From NCBI GenBank assembly GCA_002917775.1, contig KZ627153.1, positions 878,692 through 942,691 of the forward strand: a stretch of DNA of 64,000 bases, in the 5' to 3' direction. The notes below the pieces were generated by a model. The model was not told the origin of the DNA. It saw only the letters and a program-made list of their open reading frames with translations, and searched no databases. Position 1 is the stretch's first letter, and each line of letters opens with the position of its first letter. The position numbers and the translations under genes are program-made. The DNA is from Glaciozyma antarctica PI12 (lineage: Eukaryota > Basidiomycota > Microbotryomycetes > Kriegeriales > Camptobasidiaceae). This document shows positions 3,454 through 13,447 of this stretch, piece after piece.

Positions 3454-6400
3454 CTAGAACACAACCAAGCACTTCTCCACGTCCCACCCCAAGGCCTTCA
3501 ACCCTGGCTCGACAATCTCCTCCACCATCGGTCCCGGCCCACAAACCAGCACGAGCGAGTCCTCGCCCGGCGGCGGGAGGTGCCTCTCCATCATCGCCAT
3601 ATCAATCCGTCCCCTCGAGTACTGCCAATCTTCGGGAGGGTTCGAGAGGCAGAAATGCTGTTGGAAGCGCAAGGGACCGGCGAGGGTGGCGAGGGAGTCG
3701 AGGGAGGAGCGGAGGAGGATGTCGGACTCGGTTTTGTTGGCGTTGAGGAGCCAGAGCTTCGTTTCGAAATCTTTGACGTCGTGGATGACTCCTTTGAGGA
3801 CTTGGATAATGGGCGTGATTCCTACGAAGCGTGGAGAGGTTAGCGAGGAGCGAGGAACGAAGGGAGAGAAGGACGCACCACTGCCACCGCAGATCAGGCC
3901 AATGTTCTTCGCTCGCCGCTCGACTCCACGCCATTTAGCGAGGCCCTTGCCGAGCCATTGGAAGCTACCGAGAGGTCCTTTGAACTCAACGCAGTCGCCG
4001 ACTTGGAGCTCTTCGAAGCCGAGCGTCATTCGTCCGCCTTCAGGGAAGTCCTTCGTGCGATGGTAGACCTGCGCGATATCCTGTCAGCGAGTCGCACCGC
4101 GAGCAGAGAGAAAATCGAGAACGCACCTTGATAAGCAGCTCCAAATGCCCCTTCGCATCCGACGCCGAGACCGGCGTATAAGCTCGCTGGACGAGTTCGC
4201 CTTCCACCAACCCCGTCGCAGCCTCCACGACCTTCCTCCTCAACCTCGCATACACATGCTGACCCGTCGGAAGTCCAAGCGGTTGATCCGGGTGCTCGAG
4301 CTGGAACTTGTAGAGGCGGGAATCGTGGTTGACGATTTCGATCGAGACGAGTTGGGCCGACTTCCATTTGGACTTGTGGAGGAAGGTCGCGTCGGGTACA
4401 GTGGGGAGGATGGAGAGAGCGGTGGTGAGGGTGGAGGGGATGAGTGTGCCGATGTGGTATTCCCGAAGCTTGATCTTTGCGTCCTGCGATTACGAAAGGG
4501 GTCAGCAAAGCTCGCAAGCGGGAGGGCGAGCGAAGGAACGCACGACCGAGTGAATCGCCATAAAGTCCTCCGAAGCATCCTCGCCTGCGACGATCGTGAT
4601 CGACTCTGCTCCTCCAGGGTGCGCCTTGAGGAACGGCGTCCCATCGTACACCTCGCCGTTAACGGCGAACCAGGGCTCCGCCTCAGTGTTGTGCGCCCGG
4701 AGTTCCTCGACCGAGATCCTCCTATCGACTCCCGCCTTGGTCATGACGACGACGGCCTTCTGCTGGCTGAGCTCGAGAATCTTGGTGTCCTCGACGGCGG
4801 GAGAGTCGGTGAAGATGGGGTTGAGAACGTCGAGGCCGAGATCCTTCATGCGCTCCATCCAACCGCCGGGCTGCGTCCCTGGCATTGTCGGGTGCTCGAA
4901 GCGGAGAGTCGTGAGGCCGTTCTCGAGCGTCTTGTGAATCGCGACGCGGAACCACCAGTTGCTACGAGAGGATAGCTCATCAGCGAGCGTTCGTCGAAGC
5001 GAGGAGGAAGACGCACTTCATCATTCCAGTCGGGCTGCGAAAGCAAAGTCAGCTCAGCCCGAATCGCATGAAAGACGCAGCGACTCACTTCCAGTACATG
5101 CTCTGACCCTGAACATGCAAACTCTCATCCATGCCCCTCACCGCCACGCTTCCCGCCTTCTCCAACTCCCTCACATCGACCTTACACTCCCAGAACGCCC
5201 AACAAAAGCACTCGTCGCGATCCGTCAAATCCAACGTCCCCCATACGGGCCCCGAGAACGCCTCAGTGCGGTACTGATCCTCGGGGTACGACACCTCTGC
5301 AAGAATCCAGGAGACTCCAGCGTCGAGAGTGATTTCGACTCGGTTGACGCGACGACCTCCGCCGGCGTAGGCGTACCCTGCGAGGGTGTAGTAGGTCGGT
5401 TCAGGAGGGGAGGGGAGGATGAGGAGCTCGTCGTGTGCTGGGTGGGCGATGGCGGAGTTGGTGTTCAGGTCATTGATGATGTAGCTGTGGAGCTGGGTTA
5501 GCGGGGAGGGGGAAAGCGATGCGAGGACGTACCGAGGATCGTACCACCATTCGCGCTCGCTGCGAGCTTGCTCGGGCATGAGAGTTGTGGGAAGTACTTT
5601 GTTGTCCTGCACATCGAGTTAGCGAGGATGATCAGGAGCGAGAGCGAGGAGACGTGCCCAAAAATGGAGATGGTGTTGCGACTCCTTGTCGCTGAGAATG
5701 ATCTTCTTGAGCCACTTGACGCTTCGGCCTGTGAATTAAAGGCGTCAGAGGAAATCGTCTCAGAGAAAGCGAGGATAACGCACCTCCAATCTGGCCAGGA
5801 ACGACGAGACGGAGAGGGTATCCATGATCCGGCTCGAGCGCCTGCGAAGGGAGAGATCGTTGGTGTCAACTCGATGTAGGAAGAAAGCGAACGCACCTCT
5901 CCATTCATTGCCCAAGCGAGCAACATCCCCTTCTCCTTCATCCTCGCCCACCTCAACCGCTGCGAAGTTCCGTACTTGCCATCGGGCAAGTCCTCGGCTC
6001 CCTCAAAAATGACATGCTCAGGCTTCCTGAACCCCTCACACCCCTCGTCACGTCCCTCTGCACCTCGTCCCGACCATCTCCAGCACGTCCACCAGGTACA
6101 CCCCCGTGAACAACGCCGTGCTCAACCCCGCCGGTCCCCAACTGAATCCCAAGCTCTTGCGCACGACGTTCTGCTCCTTCCTCCGATTCCCAGCGCACAC
6201 GAGCGTGATCGGTAGTGTGACAGTGTTGAAGAGTGCTTGATCGAGGAGGTTGGCGAGAGTGAGAGTGAGAGGGCGAGCGACGAGGCCGGAGATCTCGAGA
6301 GTCCAGTTGTGGGCTTCGGCGAGGGAGACGCGAGGGACTAGACCGTGGTTGCGGACGTAAAAGAGGTTGGTAGGGGTGAGGAATCCCTGTTCGTGGCTTG

Positions 6401-6832
6401 GGGTTAGCGTGCGTCAAGGGAATGGAGGGAGGGACGAACGGCAGAGAAGAGGGAGGGAAGAGGAGCCTCGCAGTTGAACGGCCAGCGTCCGGTGAGGCGT
6501 ACGAGCTTCTCTTCGCGAAGAACCCATTCGTCAGGAGTCCCGGCGTCCTTGAGATCGGGCTGAGCGACTGGCACGGAGGGCGGTAGGGAGGGGTAGGCGA
6601 TGGGGAGGGGAGGAGCGGCGTACGAGCTCTTGAGGCCTTCTTGCGCCGCGAGAGTCGGGGGGTAGAAGGGTGATGGTAATACGTTCGAGGGCTGGGAAGG
6701 ACGGGTGTCGGAGGTGCGGCGATGCTGGAGGGGAGCTGGTGGTGAAGAACGAGATCGCGACCTGCCAGAAGTGGTGGGAAGGCGGACTGCTTGTCGTGAG
6801 CGAGGCGAAGTGAGGAGGATCGGAGCTTCCAT
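3454..6832 (-). CDS. niaD: Assimilatory nitrate reductase (Moco-heme-FAD), with one frame break
   Basis: Cytosolic NAD(P)H:nitrate reductase, first step of nitrate assimilation. Domain order from the N-terminus: low-complexity leader; sulfite-oxidase-type molybdopterin domain with LVCAGNRRKEQN (Mo-ligand Cys), GFSWGPAGLST, YGTSQRLRWA and PDHGYPLRLVVPGQIGG; Moco dimerisation domain ending WGMMNNWWF; hinge; cytochrome b5 domain (HPGGAESI axial His); FAD domain with RAYTP; NAD(P) domain with GLICGGSG and VCGPGPM; C-terminus CLVVF. About 900 residues, normal for the family. The start at 6832 (MEAPILL) is preferred; an in-frame upstream start would add a poly-Thr stretch. The exon joins I traced keep the frame, except that it slips by one base around 6054-6071 inside the Moco domain (see findings). 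No nitrite reductase or nitrate transporter lies in the window. Confidence 0.93.
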
Positions 6833-6852: not shown

Positions 6853-7295
6853 TTATCGCCTCGTATCCGAAGCAGTGGGGAGGAGAGAGAGGAAGAGAAG
6901 CTGGGGCAAGGCGCAATCGCAGCCGATTTCCGATAGGAGTGGCCCTTTCTGAACCGACCCGGGGTTAATCAGGCGCGCGGTGAGGGCGGAGTGAGCCTTA
7001 GCGTTGATCTGGGCGCTCAAGCTAAAGCAAGACTTCGAACCAGGCAGGAGAGGAGAGAGGAGAAATAGAAGAGGAGAACAACCGAAAACTCTCGAGTCTC
7101 CGCGGAGCTCAAGCGCTCAGAGGCGGCTGGGGCTGCCAGTTCATCCTCAAGTAAAGCCAGCCCAGCGTGGTCGACTATAAGCCAGAGTTGAACCCTTGAG
7201 AGGAACTGAGGCAGTCACCTTCAGCTCGTCCATCCCAGCTGCACCTCCCTTCACCTCCTACCATCACCTCGTTCTCCAGGTCTCTGCCCAGCGGG
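6853..7295. promoter_or_regulatory. Divergent nitrate reductase / DUG2 promoter region
   Basis: Lies between the nitrate reductase start (minus) and the DUG2 start (plus). It holds the perfect palindrome TCCGCGGA (7099-7106), inside a 10 bp palindrome CTCCGCGGAG, which matches the known NIT4 site of Neurospora and resembles NirA sites. A CGATAG (GATA core 6932-6935) fits the HGATAR consensus of AreA/NIT2 nitrogen regulators. Their function here is inferred. Confidence 0.5.
7099..7106. promoter_or_regulatory. Candidate NIT4/NirA-type binding palindrome
   Basis: TCCGCGGA is the palindromic octamer reported for Neurospora NIT4, the nitrate-specific Zn2Cys6 activator. It lies about 270 bp upstream of the nitrate reductase start and about 190 bp upstream of DUG2. 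The match is exact, but one octamer can occur by chance in GC-rich DNA. Confidence 0.45.
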
Positions 7296-10200
7296 ATGAC
7301 CTTCGCACCATCAACCAGTCCACCACCCGACACTACCAGCTCATCGTTACCACCCTTCTCAGTCGCGACTTCCCTCCCCCAATCCCCCACCGTCTCCCAC
7401 CTCTCCGCCTCGCGTCCTCTCCCACCCACTCAACCCGCTACGCCCACTCCAGCAGAGCCGGCAAGGGATCCACCGGTGTTATTGAACGTACTGGGTGCGA
7501 GCGATGGAGAGAGCATCTTGGTGTTGGTCGTCGAGGAGGATCGGGAGAGGGGGAGGGTGTACGGAGGGAGTCAGGCAGGCGATATTCACGTGAGCACGCG
7601 TGTGGTTCTGCTGTGGGCTGCTCGGAGAAGCTGGATGTGGAGTTCGTGGAGGAAGAGCTGGTGTGCTCGTTGAGGCTGCGGCGGGGACGTCGAGCCTCAG
7701 GCGTGTGCCCTGCTGGTGACAGATGCACGCCTACGCTACCTTCTCAGGATGGATTGCACCAGTAGAACCTACTGGAGCTGGCAGGGCGAGTGGTGCCCTC
7801 CTCGGAACTCTCCCGTAACTCCTTCCTGTGGAGGAAGGGGACAGGGCAGAGTACCTGACTGGCATGGACTCGTCCTGCCCCGTTCGTCCAGCTGCTTTTG
7901 AGCCCGCCGTTTGAGACGGTGGAAATACAAGGTTGGAGCAGGGCTGGGTTGGAGCAGCGCGGTTGAGGGCAGCGCGTTCACTTGCGAAGTGCGTTGTCCC
8001 TCTGAGCTGGCTGCAAGGATAAGGATGGCAGAGGGAGACAGGAGACAGCAGGACCTCCGCATCTGACTCTCTTCTCTCGCGGTGGAGAGATCGACGCGGT
8101 AGACGTACTTGTAGAGAGCTGTCACCCTTCGTTCCCACTTCCGCAACACCATGACTCTGGATGACCACTGACTCTCCCTCCCCCCGACGACAGGTCTGGG
8201 ATCTCAGTACTCTCACCCTCCGCGCCCGACTCAGTGGCCACACCGGCGCCGTCCTCGCTCTCCAAATCGTCAAAGCCCGCGAATGGCTCATCAGCTCCTC
8301 CGGTACGTTACTCTCCTCTCCTCTCCAGCTCACACTAACGACTCAACTGCAGGCGACGGGACGATTCGTGTCTGGCACACTCCTACCCTCTCGGCGCTCT
8401 ACGTTGTCCACCCTCCGCACGATAACGTCGGCGACATCTTCTCCCTCGCCTGGGTCGACAACGATCGCCTGCAAGGGGAGGATCCACACCTGTCGCTCTC
8501 GAGGCACGCGAAAGGCAAAGGAAGGCTGTACGCTGGAAGCCAGGACACCTCAATCCAAGTTCGTCCTTCTCCCCTCCTCTCGCGATGAGGCACTGACAAG
8601 GCGCAGTGGATCGACCTCCCACCAGCGTTCCACCTCGAATCCCACGCGCACCCACTCGGCGGGATACCGCCCTACCTCTCCTCCCCACCACTCTCCTCCT
8701 CACCGCCTATCCACCGCGTCGCGAACAAGTTCTTCGACTCGGTCTCGATCGCCGACCGACCGCGGGCGCAGTTGAAGCGGAATCCGGATTCGACTACGAG
8801 CTTGGCGGGGATGGGGAGGTCGTTTGAGGAGGGATTGTGCAGTGGGACAACGCCGGTGGAGCATGTGGTCGATCTGCAGTTTGAGGACGACCACGTCGCG
8901 CCTTACGCTCATTACGGCTACGTCGTGAGTGCTGCTCGAGCTCGCTTTTGGGAGGGGAGCTGATCATCCTATCGCAGTACTGCCTCCTCGTGGCGAAGAG
9001 CAACGACCGGGACGTTCTCATCTCAGGCTGTGAGCTTGCTGCCTCTCCTCCTGTTTTCGAGCGAAGGCTGATGCGACGTCCTCTGCAGCTGGCGACGAAC
9101 GCATCAAGCTCTGGTCGATGTCGCACAAAGAACTCACGAATATCGCAACGCTGGACTCGGTGGCCGACGCTGTGCTTGCGATCGCTGTTCGCGACAACAC
9201 GCTGTTCGCAGGGCACCAGGGAGGAGTTATCAAGGTCAGCTTTGCGCGTCAAAGAGTGCCATTACCGTAGCTGACATTGCGAGGGCAGATCTGGGATCTC
9301 GACACGTTCACCTGCATCCGAAACCTCAAGTCCCGCTCGGTACGTCTGACCTCGGTACGTCTGACCCTTCGCGCCTCCACCCTCGCACACAGGCCGACAT
9401 CCTCACCATCTCCGTCGTCGGCCAAGATTTCTACTCGGGCGCAGCGGACGGGACGCTGCAGAGGTGGGATAAAGCTTTCCATGCCGTCACGACTTGGGCT
9501 GCGCACAAGAGCATCGTCCTCGCTTCGGCCGCCAGTACTGCTCATAGCACGCATCTTATTACGGGTGGCAATGATGGAGTCGTCAAGGTTCGTCCTCGCT
9601 TGCAGCTTGGACGGATGGGCGCGCTGACCTTGTGAGGGCAGATTTGGGATATTATCGACGACGAGAAGCCTGCGTCGTCAGAAGAGCTTCCGAAGGGCTT
9701 CCAAGGTGCATTCTACTCTCAAAGCTGCATCAAACTCTCGCTGATCCCTTCTCGCAGGCCCTCTCTTCCACACCCTCAGCAAGCTCGTCTCTTTCAAAAC
9801 GATCGCCGACGAGGAGCATCGCGAAGAGTGTCGACAAGGCGCACTGTACCTCAAGCGTATTCTGCGTCAGCTAGGCGCCGAGACTGCTCTCGTCAGTCCT
9901 CCTCATTCTCTCTGCGAGCGTGGCTGAGACCGCCTTGCGCGCAGCTCCCTGGCGCGACGGGCCGAAATCCTCTCGTCCTCGCGACTTTTAAAGCGAACGC
10001 TCCTCCCTCGGGCGGCAATACGATGCCGAGGAAGCGCGTCCTCTGCTACGGTCGTGAGTTGTCTTCCTATCGCTACCTGCGCCGCCGCTGACTCCCCCGT
10101 CGCAGATTACGACGTCGTTTCCGCAGCTGACGGACACAAGTGGTCGAACGATCCTTTCGAGATGACGGGCAAGGACGGCTGGATATACGGCCGAGGCGTT

Positions 10201-11631
10201 TCGGACAACAAGGTCAGCAGGCGTTCGTTGTCCTTAGGAGATCGTTGCTGATGCCAGTCTCGCGCTTAGGGACCAATGCTCGCGATCGCTGCTGCTGCTT
10301 CAGATCTCCGAATCACTCAGGCTTTGGACGTTGATCTCGTCATGATCGTTGAGGGGGAGGAGGAGACGGGTAGCGCGGGGTTCCAAGACGCGATTCGGAA
10401 GAACCGAGTGAGTTCAACTGCGTTGGGGCGAGGTTTTGCGGCTGACCGCTTCTTCAGGACCTCATCGGCGATATCGACGTGATTCTCGTCAGCAACTCGT
10501 ACTGGATAGGCGAGGACATCCCCTGTCTTACGTTCGGTCTTCGAGGAGTCATTCACGCTACGATCAAGGTGCGTCCCCTCTTCCTCCTCTCGCGTATCGC
10601 CCGCTGACGCCCTCTCCTTTGATCTCAGATCAACAGTGACCAGCCCGACCTGCATTCCGGGATGCAAGGAGGAGTCGTCAGCGAGCCGCTCATCGACATG
10701 GTTCGTCTTCTCGCGAGCTTGACGGACGCCGATGGCCGAGTACGGATTCCTCACTTCCTGGACGACGTTCGCAAGCTCGGTCCGGAGGAGAGCGCGCTGT
10801 ACGATGCGGTGATTGAGCGATGCAGCAGGTTCGTCTCGTTCGGCTGAACTCGCGAGACTGAGTTCCCTGACGAGGTCTTTCACAGCGACAAGCAGGACAA
10901 GCTGCACCAGAACTCGCATATTACCGACCCTCGCCGCTCGCTTATCACCAGGTTCGTCTGCGCACATCGCTTCGTTGATTGCGGCGCTGACGCAGCTTGC
11001 TCAGGTGGCGTCAACCCGCTCTCAGCATCCACAAGGTCAACGTCGCCGGTCCCTCTCAAAAGACCCTCATCCCTTCCTGGGCTACCTCTTCCGTATCGAT
11101 TCGCATCGTCCCCGACCAACCTCTCCTCGACATCGTCGAGCAGCTCAAGGCTCACCTCCACAAGGCCTTCGCGTCCCTCCGAACCCACAACATGCTTTCG
11201 GTGAGTCCCTCTCTCGTTCTTTCGTGAACTGCCGCTAATCTTCTACACTGTGCAGGTCGAGATCAACCACGTCGCGGATTGGTGGCTCGGCGACATCGAG
11301 AGCCCTTACTTCAGCGCGCTCGCCAACTGCATCGAGGACGAATGGAAGATCAAGCCTATCCTCATCCGCGAAGGAGGGAGCATCCCTTCGCTTCCGTTCC
11401 TCGAGCGCGAGTTCGCTGCTGCCAGCGTGCACTTCCCCATGGGTCAAGGATCCGACTCGGCCCATCTCCCCGACGAGAAGATCAGGATCGTCAACCTCGA
11501 GGTGCATTCGACTCTTTCTCTTCACCGGAGACTCGAGCTGATCCTTGCACGCACTACAGCGCGGCAAGAGCATCATCTCCAAGTGGCTCTGCGCTCTCCC
11601 CAGCCTGCCTCGCGAGGAGCACGACCTCTAG
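7296..11631 (+). CDS. DUG2: DUG2, WD40-M20 peptidase of the glutathione degradosome
   Basis: In yeast, Dug2 forms the (GSH) degradosomal complex with the amidotransferase Dug3 and the peptidase Dug1 and cleaves the gamma-glutamyl bond of glutathione outside the gamma-glutamyltranspeptidase route. The N-terminal half carries WD repeats (VWDLSTLTLRARLSGH, DGTIRVWHT, IWDLDTFTC, LITGGNDGVVKIWD). The C-terminal half is an M20 metallopeptidase fold: LCYGHYDVV (metal His and Asp, split by an intron), GRGVSDNKGPMLA, VEGEEETGS (catalytic Glu), LHSGMQGGVVSEP and RWRQPALSIHKV. This WD40-M20 fusion is diagnostic. There are about 15 introns. All are short except one of 604 bp (7590-8193) that joins GDIH to VWDL. 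The last exon, RGKSIISKWLCALPSLP, ends at 11631. The frame is intact across every join I checked. Confidence 0.92.
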
Positions 11632-12022
11632 AAGTCCCTGCTCCTTCGTTCGCTAGAGCCCCTTCATCCACCTTCGTACCATACCCTGCGTGCTCGATAT
11701 ACCCAACCCACTTTTGCATCCTTTTCGACGCGCTCCTCTGCTCTGCTCTGCTCAGCTCCCCGCCGCGCGCTCCACTCTAAGCTGACCTGTCCCGTCCCTC
11801 GCAGATTCACTTTCTATGCGCAGGGAGTTGAACAGGCTCATATCTGGACAGCAGCCTCACTCCGTCCGCTCGCCTTGTCAGCACGCCGTCCTCGGGAGAA
11901 GAAGATGCGAGATGAGGTCCGACCGGAGTCCGGGAGCCCGGCAGCCACGGCAAGAGCGAGAGTCGCCTCTTTTTTTGGGAAGACTCTGCTGCTGCTTTGA
12001 CCAGCTCCTTATACTCTCGACA
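11632..12022. promoter_or_regulatory. Upstream region of the heme-flavin reductase
   Basis: No gene seen. A CTGACC branch motif followed by CTCGCAG near 11777-11806 looks like the 3' end of an intron, so the reductase may have a 5'-UTR intron. No TCCGCGGA palindrome is present here, unlike in the nitrate reductase promoter. Confidence 0.4.
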
Positions 12023-13447
12023 ATGCCAGGACTTTCGACGACCGCTACCTCGCCTCAGTCGGCGCCTGCTTCGGACGTGTCCTCCTCGAAGGCGCAGGTC
12101 GCGAAGGAGGTGCTCAACGAGGGCGCCTCCGTGAGAGAGATCACTCCCGAGGAGCTCAATCAGCACAACACGGCGTCGGTGCCGTGGTTCGTCGTCAACG
12201 GCGAGGTCTACAACGGGACAGCATTCCTGGACGACCATCCCGGAGGACCGGACGAGATTATCGGCGTAGCTGGCCAGGACGCAACCGAGGCCTTTATGGC
12301 GATTCATCCTCCCGTAAGTAGCGCTCTCGATACCCTTGAGAGCTCCGCTGACGCTTTCCGTGACCGCAGGAAGCGATGGAGCAGCTCAAACGCTTTCACA
12401 TCGGCACCTTCGTCTCATCCCGTGCACCTCTCTCGACCCTCCCTCTCCCAGACCTCTCCAACCTTTCCATCCACTCTCCCCTGACCACTTCCCTCACTCC
12501 CGACCCCCAATTCCTCCACGCAACCAAGTGGAAGTCGGCCAAGCTCGTCTCCATCGACCTTGTCAACCACGATTCCCGCCTCTACAAGTTCCAACTCGAG
12601 CATCCCGATCAGGCACTCGGTCTTCCGACGGGACAGCATGTCCATGCGCGCTTGAAGAGGAAGCCGAAAGCTGGGAAATCTGTGAGTGTGGGAGAATCGA
12701 ACGTCGAAGGGGAGCTTGTTCAGCGTTCGTACACGCCGCTGTCTTCGTCCGATGCGAAGGGACATGTGGAGCTTCTCATAAAGGTGCGTCTTCGCTCTCC
12801 CGCCAGCTTTGTTTTAGGACTGACGATCCTGCCGCAGGTCTACCCTCGCACGAAGGAGTTCCCTGAAGGAGGACGGATGACGCTGGGCTTCGAAGAGCTC
12901 GAAGTTGGCGACGGCGTCGAGTTCAAGGGACCTCTCGGAAGCTTCGAGTGGCTTGGGAGTGGAAAGGCAAAGTGGCGTGGAGCCGAGCGACGCGTCAAGA
13001 ACATCGGAATGATCTGCGGTGGCAGTGGTGCGTCTCGCTACTCTCCCCTCCCTTCCTCCTCACTGACTAGTACTCGCAGGTATCACTCCGATCATCCAAA
13101 TCCTCAAAGGAGTCATCCGCGACGACACGGACTCAGAAACGAAGCTCTGGCTCCTGGACGCGAACAAAACAGAAGCCGACATCCTCCTCCGCACCGAGCT
13201 CGAAGCTCTCGCCTCCGCCGTCGGCCCCTCTCGATTCCACCTCCAATTTTGCCTCTCAAAAGCACCTGAGGAATGGCAGCACTCAAAAGGACGGATCACT
13301 CGAGCGATGTTGGATGCGCATCTCCCGCCGCCGGGCGAGGATTCGCTGATCCTCGTTTGCGGGCCTCAGCCGATGATTGATGCGCTCGTGAAGCCCGAGT
13401 TGACGGCGTTGGGGTGGGACGTAGAGAAGTCGCTGGTCGTATTTTAG
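12023..13447 (+). CDS. Cytochrome b5-FAD-NAD(P) reductase, partial copy of nitrate reductase
   Basis: About 410 residues. A hinge-like leader is followed by a cytochrome b5 domain (DDHPGGPDEII, FMAIHP), an FAD domain (LGLPTGQHVHARL, QRSYTP) and an NAD(P) domain (GMICGGSG, LVCGPQPM), ending KSLVVF. It is strikingly close to the C-terminal half of the nitrate reductase 5 kb away. KWKSA.LVSI, NHDSRLYKFQLEHPDQ, FPEGGRMTLGFEEL, ITPIIQVLKGVI and LGWDVEK match nearly residue for residue, and the three introns sit at equivalent positions. No molybdopterin domain precedes it. It should pass electrons from NAD(P)H through FAD to heme, but the final acceptor is unknown. All catalytic motifs look intact and the frame is open, so it is not a decaying fragment. 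Generic annotation would be cytochrome-b5 reductase. Confidence 0.9.

Follow-up and report, generated by a model that had tools for sequence, protein, structure and literature searches.

The diaphorase gene and its neighbours

The window, a stretch of 64,000 nucleotides (bases 878692 to 942691 of contig 8 in a genome of 19,983,266 bases and 18 contigs), encodes a nitrate reductase (NR) and, at 12023-13447 on the forward strand, a shorter gene for a putative flavo-heme diaphorase, hereafter the diaphorase (Table 1). Its four exons, joined across GT-AG introns, encode 420 amino acids with no inner stop codon. The N-terminus is uncertain because in-frame ATGs at 11816 and 11912 would extend the protein by 69 or 37 residues, respectively.

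Table 1. Features of the diaphorase and NR genes in the window
Feature	Position	Strand	Basis or remark
NR gene: Mo, dimerisation, b5, FAD and NAD domains	3454..6832	-	sister copy of the diaphorase
NR reading-frame break (approximate), Mo-domain exon	6049..6075	-	this assembly; proteins of 25 relatives run through
TCCGCGGA palindrome	7099..7106	.	267 bp upstream of NR start; sole copy in the window; between the divergent NR and WD40/peptidase genes
Diaphorase upstream region: 0 NIT4-like sites, 0 HGATAR sites, 2 bare GATA cores (1.4 expected)	11634..12022	+	site scan; shuffles
Exon 1: new N-terminus (about 20 codons), hinge-1 remnant, most of cytochrome b5 with axial His72 and His95	12023..12313	+	gene model; Pfam; DNA homology from 12085
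Intron 1, 56 nt, phase 0; place of NR intron 4546-4484	12314..12369	+	phase read from joins
Exon 2: end of b5, hinge 2, FAD-binding domain with RSYT motif	12370..12783	+	gene model; Pfam; motif comparison
Intron 2, 54 nt, phase 0; place of NR intron 4126-4069	12784..12837	+	phase read from joins
Exon 3: remaining FAD domain, start of NAD domain (GGSG)	12838..13027	+	gene model; motif comparison
Intron 3, 52 nt, phase 1; place of last NR intron	13028..13079	+	phase read from joins
Exon 4: NAD(P)-binding domain (ITP, GRI and CGP motifs), stop codon	13080..13447	+	gene model; motif comparison

Using Pfam, we detected three domains in the diaphorase, all above the cut-off: Cyt-b5 (residues 41-110, 4.7e-22), FAD_binding_6 (154-273, 1.6e-27) and NAD_binding_1 (293-401, 5.8e-27). 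As the original prediction had it, a molybdopterin domain is absent, and so is any further Pfam domain, at E values up to 0.001. The two domains that mark a full NR, PF00174 (molybdopterin) and PF03404 (dimerisation), were likewise not found by Pfam, nor was a CS or other Pfam domain in residues 111-153, between b5 and FAD. NCBIfam returned 13 weak matches, none of them close to the cut-off. Among structures matched by sequence, the reductase part resembles b5 reductases and reductase fragments of NR (1cnf, 2cnd and 5yly) and the front resembles cytochromes b5 (60 of the 76 matches listed).

The heme and flavin motifs, predicted to be intact, are all present: the protein keeps the axial His72 and His95, HPGG, RxYT, GG, GGSGIT, CGP and the arginine of GRI. 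It thereby carries the whole motif set of a flavo-heme diaphorase (two axial His, HPGG, RxYT(S), GGSGxT and CGP), with a change from Ser to Pro in the residue after the second His. The GRI position is Arg in 111 of the 120 NRs listed (best 120 of 1,601 matches); since we take this arginine to be part of an NADPH-preferring fungal pattern, the diaphorase may use NADPH.

The NR gene and the diaphorase lie on opposite strands with one gene (approximately 7296-11631, forward strand, by eye) between them. By eye, this gene joins WD40 repeats to an M20-type peptidase and is presumably DUG2-like; one of its introns is about 600 nt long and the others look to be about 50 nt. The description of the diaphorase as kept intact next to its parent thus holds for the diaphorase, which is open, but applies less well to the arrangement and to the parent, whose frame breaks once in this assembly. 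The residues of NR are otherwise well kept. Against the 120 NRs listed, no near-invariant column is changed, either in the Mo and dimerisation domains (117 of 117 kept) or in the diaphorase part (57 of 57); against 20 Microbotryomycete NRs, 209 of 215 and 133 of 140 are kept, respectively. Conservation this extensive points to an assembly error, a short splice (intron) that went unrecognised, or a very recent lesion. NR intron 5657-5607 (reverse strand) was inferred from the conserved protein join and is GC-AG.

Descent from nitrate reductase

Chance or a gene-model artefact is ruled out as the source of the diaphorase by its clean four-exon frame and by its BLASTP match to the NR of the same window (259 of 405 positions identical, E = 1e-179). 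The match to NR had been predicted to cover the whole length. It falls short of this at the front: protein homology begins at residue 18, and DNA homology at 12085 (approximately residue 21), inside hinge 1. Over 363 aligned columns, the diaphorase is 69% (0.686) identical to its own NR, compared with 0.55-0.66 for 21 Microbotryomycete NR rows. As predicted, the introns are at equivalent places: all three coincide in residue position with the three final introns of NR, and the phases, read from the joins, are equal too. The retained introns and the open frame rule out a reverse-transcribed copy or processed pseudogene.

In a tree of 30 rows (the diaphorase, its own NR and 28 others, 20 of them from Microbotryomycetes; the partial row P0141 was excluded), the diaphorase and its own NR pair with support of 100/99, apart from the 28 other NRs, on end branches of 0.52 and 0.27, respectively. 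A topology in which the own NR joins the other 20 Microbotryomycete NRs to the exclusion of the diaphorase was rejected (p-AU 0.00577). An older duplication lost in other Microbotryomycetes is accordingly disfavoured (p-AU 0.006), with the b5 part alone silent on the point. The pair also appears in trees of the FAD domain (97/99), the NAD domain (97/97) and both combined (100/99). The tree of b5 only (76 columns) places the diaphorase elsewhere without support, and neither the pair (p-AU 0.443) nor the alternative (p-AU 0.315) is rejected. The diaphorase and its own NR share nine derived residues, all of them in the FAD or NAD part; b5 contributes none.

Comparison within the genome gave the same kinship. 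Two pieces of NR match the diaphorase at 66% and 51% identity, spanning introns. Three of the four other NAD-binding loci match it over 68-181 residues at 25-50% identity, and the fourth (L011) has no match at E 1e-3. The diaphorase thus groups with NR and not with ordinary b5 reductases, as predicted, the former by the NR tree and the latter by pairwise matches only; on these two grounds an origin from an ordinary b5 reductase (CBR1/MCR1) is ruled out.

Judging by the matching introns, the 69% identity and the pairing with its own NR, the diaphorase is a DNA-level partial duplication of NR that arose within this organism's lineage and was broken inside hinge 1. Its reductase part may conceivably have undergone later gene conversion, because the b5-only tree lacks the pair, no derived b5 residues are shared and dS is lower in exons 3 and 4 (0.62 and 0.77) than in exons 1 and 2 (1.11 and 1.17).

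The original prediction assumed a setting in the Sporidiobolales, which the NR phylogeny contradicts. In a tree of 25 full-length NRs, the Sporidiobolales form a clade of 17 rows (98/98) that does not include the NR of the window, which adjoins Microbotryum (91/87) on a long branch of 0.62. By this one gene, the organism appears to be a Microbotryomycete outside the Sporidiobolales, and none of the NRs found is from a close relative.

A search with the diaphorase scored 7,993 candidates and gave 899 matches. Among the best 120, which were listed, 33 have no Mo-type Pfam domain, and we inspected the starts of all of them. Nineteen start within the last part of the NR dimerisation domain and are therefore pieces of NR; eight have no HPGG heme motif, so that their b5 is missing or cut. 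Three (P0013, P0021 and P0118) open at the first residue or lack an initial Met. The last three (P0004, P0014 and P0037) have a Met just before b5, come from contigs of 1.2-1.4 kb, show at most 51% identity to the query and are indistinguishable from cut NR pieces. With residues 1-150 as query, 44 matches were found and all were listed; 12 have no Mo-type domain. Judged by sequence or start, these 12 comprise a b5-peroxidase, a different b5 protein and ten apparent pieces of NR. A third search, with residues 1-913 of the 940 of NR, gave 1,601 matches; the best 120, which were listed, are headed by 21 Microbotryomycete rows, which represent 19 taxa. The database includes full Microbotryomycete NRs and no close relative, and among the matches listed we saw no clear stand-alone orthologue of the diaphorase. 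In the open-access literature searched, judged by title or the start of the abstract, we found no description of a stand-alone NR-derived diaphorase in fungi.

Sequence conservation and upstream regions

Between the diaphorase and its own NR (NG86, 363 codons), dS is 0.90 and dN 0.21, giving a dN/dS of 0.235; by domain the ratio is 0.26 for b5, 0.17 for FAD, 0.23 for NAD and 0.78 for the hinge (16 codons). The differences avoid conserved sites, affecting 16 of 140 near-invariant columns compared with 98 of 223 variable ones (p = 1.7e-11). Together with the open frame and the cofactor motifs, these values indicate that the gene is apparently maintained under purifying selection. The prediction of a partial NR duplication that became a functional diaphorase is in line with this as far as descent, frame and selection are concerned.

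That the diaphorase is instead a decaying fragment, still open by chance, seems highly improbable. Its branch is longer than that of NR, its GC3 is lower (0.71 compared with 0.78 in the corresponding part of NR), and it has changed 20 of the 146 columns that are near-invariant in 20 Microbotryomycete NRs (126 kept), where NR has changed 7 (139 kept). Yet a neutral copy at a dS of about 0.9 would be expected to show far more replacement as well as damage to the frame, and here the three introns are intact and the cofactor motifs kept. Measured against 120 NRs (the best 120 of 1,601 matches to NR, basidiomycete where named), the diaphorase keeps 53 of 57 near-invariant columns, the exceptions being S78E, D90A, S96P and A217S.

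Three of these exceptions are in b5, and Pro96, which directly follows the second axial His, is Ser in all 120 NRs listed. Given these three changes, the heme affinity or potential of the diaphorase may differ. Identity to the own NR is 43 of 75 positions in b5 and 203 of 272 in the reductase, and the tip lengths for b5 and reductase are 1.1 and 0.33 in the diaphorase compared with 0.23 and 0.22 in NR. Stronger divergence of b5 would be expected if its surface no longer docks on the Mo domain of NR. Changes in the diaphorase without a counterpart in its own NR are also denser in b5 (13 per 75 columns) than in the reductase (16 per 272; p = 0.004), including at near-invariant columns (7 of 39 and 6 of 101, respectively; p = 0.047). 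Still, by the count test this imbalance is not special to the diaphorase (13:16, compared with 4:6 in NR; p = 1). Since tree tips suggest a b5 acceleration peculiar to the diaphorase and the count test does not, we do not press the point.

The upstream regions differ between the two genes. We take the TCCGCGGA palindrome upstream of NR to be a NIT4-like site, although a literature search with its letters gave no match. A second copy (L036:9479) lies approximately 307 bp before the start, read by eye, of the nitrite reductase gene. Across the six loci scanned, the palindrome also occurs inside coding stretches (L036:8033 and L013:1276) and is absent from the NRT2-like locus L038. The nitrite reductase gene, identified by its NIR_SIR and Pyr_redox_2 domains, starts near L036:9172 on the reverse strand of contig C8, approximately 2.8 kb left of the window, and forms with NR a loose nitrate-assimilation cluster. 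The NRT2-like locus, on contig C3, has weak transporter matches, all below the family cut-off, and three frames there have no Pfam match.

The 389 bp before the diaphorase contain no NIT4-like site, which speaks against nitrate-specific regulation and, because NR and nitrite reductase both have one, against a nitrate-linked role. Nothing in this region resembles the NR gene (its Mo part included) or the NR promoter above the level of shuffles, the antisense NR promoter scoring 35 where the shuffle maximum is also 35; a remnant of the Mo domain upstream of the diaphorase is rejected on the same basis.

The diaphorase might also support NR, either passing electrons in trans to its Mo domain or competing for that domain, as the common locus and origin could suggest. 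We regard this as very unlikely, since the diaphorase has no dimerisation domain, its b5 is its most diverged part and the NIT4-like element is not shared, while NR has a diaphorase of its own in which 57 of 57 residues near-invariant in the 120 NRs listed are kept.

Candidate acceptors and known systems

The gene probably encodes a soluble NAD(P)H diaphorase, derived from NR, that serves a separate acceptor. By analogy with the family, hydride from NAD(P)H would reduce FAD, from which single electrons would move on to the heme of the fused b5 and, by way of the exposed edge of that heme, to the acceptor, presumably one other than the Mo domain of NR. The protein would be cytosolic, as no anchor was noticed in the 420-residue model, and monomeric, as the dimerisation domain is missing. 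The gene would have originated when the 3' part of NR was copied at the genomic level, not by reverse transcription, with the break inside hinge 1; the copy would have come to lie approximately 5 kb away in the opposite orientation with a new start and a new upstream region.

The genome encodes several proteins that bear on the choice of acceptor. A MOSC gene on contig C6 (L013; 30.8 bits, cut-off 22.7) begins by eye with an N-terminal motif that we assume to be mARC-like, though in the two frames scanned MOSC_N received no Pfam score. A gene on contig C12 (L012) combines MOSC_N, MOSC and aminotransferase V and fits a Moco sulfurase, and a second Oxidored_molyb gene, on contig C16, may be a sulfite oxidase. 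Further b5 and NAD-binding loci are also present. We found no sequence tie between the diaphorase and the mARC-like gene or the other candidate partners.

The diaphorase could be a dedicated donor to an mARC-type molybdoenzyme acting on N-hydroxylated compounds or converting nitrite to NO, with the pair formed in algae by the NR diaphorase and ARC here built on a separate gene. The mARC-like gene would supply the partner, and in Chlamydomonas crARC reduces nitrite with electrons from the FAD and heme domains of NR (PMC10637980). We nevertheless consider it rather unlikely, as the mARC-like gene is unlinked and is itself unscored for MOSC_N, the diaphorase lacks the NIT4-like site of NR and nitrite reductase, and the further b5 and NAD-binding loci could serve mARC equally. 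It is quite unlikely that a eukaryote has here split off the NR diaphorase as a dedicated, separately regulated mARC-type donor, with a nitrate-independent chain for NO formation or N-hydroxylamine reduction; if so, a reduction chain that relies on NR itself in algae would in this organism be independent of nitrate.

A place in lipid or sterol metabolism, with the diaphorase feeding desaturases or P450s in the manner of the b5-fused reductase ZtCBR2, is unlikely. Fusions of an N-terminal b5 to b5 reductases are reported from several fungi, their function being little known, and one in Z. tritici co-varies in expression with a neighbouring putative P450 (PMC4557397). Against this role, no membrane anchor was noticed in the diaphorase, and it descends from NR and not from the reductase family of the ER.

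NR is a textbook modular flavo-heme-molybdo enzyme, and were its electron-delivering half maintained in nature as a separate gene, the module would prove useful alone. The duplication being confined to one lineage, parent and offspring can be compared directly, and through the diaphorase gene one could test cleanly, by genetics, whether partners such as mARC are served by diaphorases of the NR type.

Among known systems, the diaphorase shares sequence, domain order and intron places with the C-terminal half of fungal assimilatory NR (niaD/nit-3 type). It differs from that enzyme in its new N-terminus and diverged b5, and since the Mo and dimerisation domains are both missing it is not expected to reduce nitrate unaided. 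Like CYB5R4 (Ncb5or), it combines b5 and reductase in one chain, the reductase part matching PDB entry 6mv1 (E = 2.7e-21) and the b5 part 3lf5 (1.9e-11). In Ncb5or a CS domain sits between b5 and reductase, whereas Pfam finds none in the diaphorase. The Chlamydomonas NR diaphorase and ARC illustrate that a heme-flavin module of the NR type is able to supply a molybdoenzyme outside its own chain (PMC10637980); there the module belongs to NR, whereas here it has a gene to itself, for which no tie to mARC is shown. The b5-fused reductases of filamentous fungi (such as ZtCBR2; PMC4557397) have the same domain order and presumed flow from NAD(P)H to b5. Because fungi have such other b5-reductase fusions, the architecture of the diaphorase appears ordinary; its descent is unusual, origin from NR being established for the diaphorase only.
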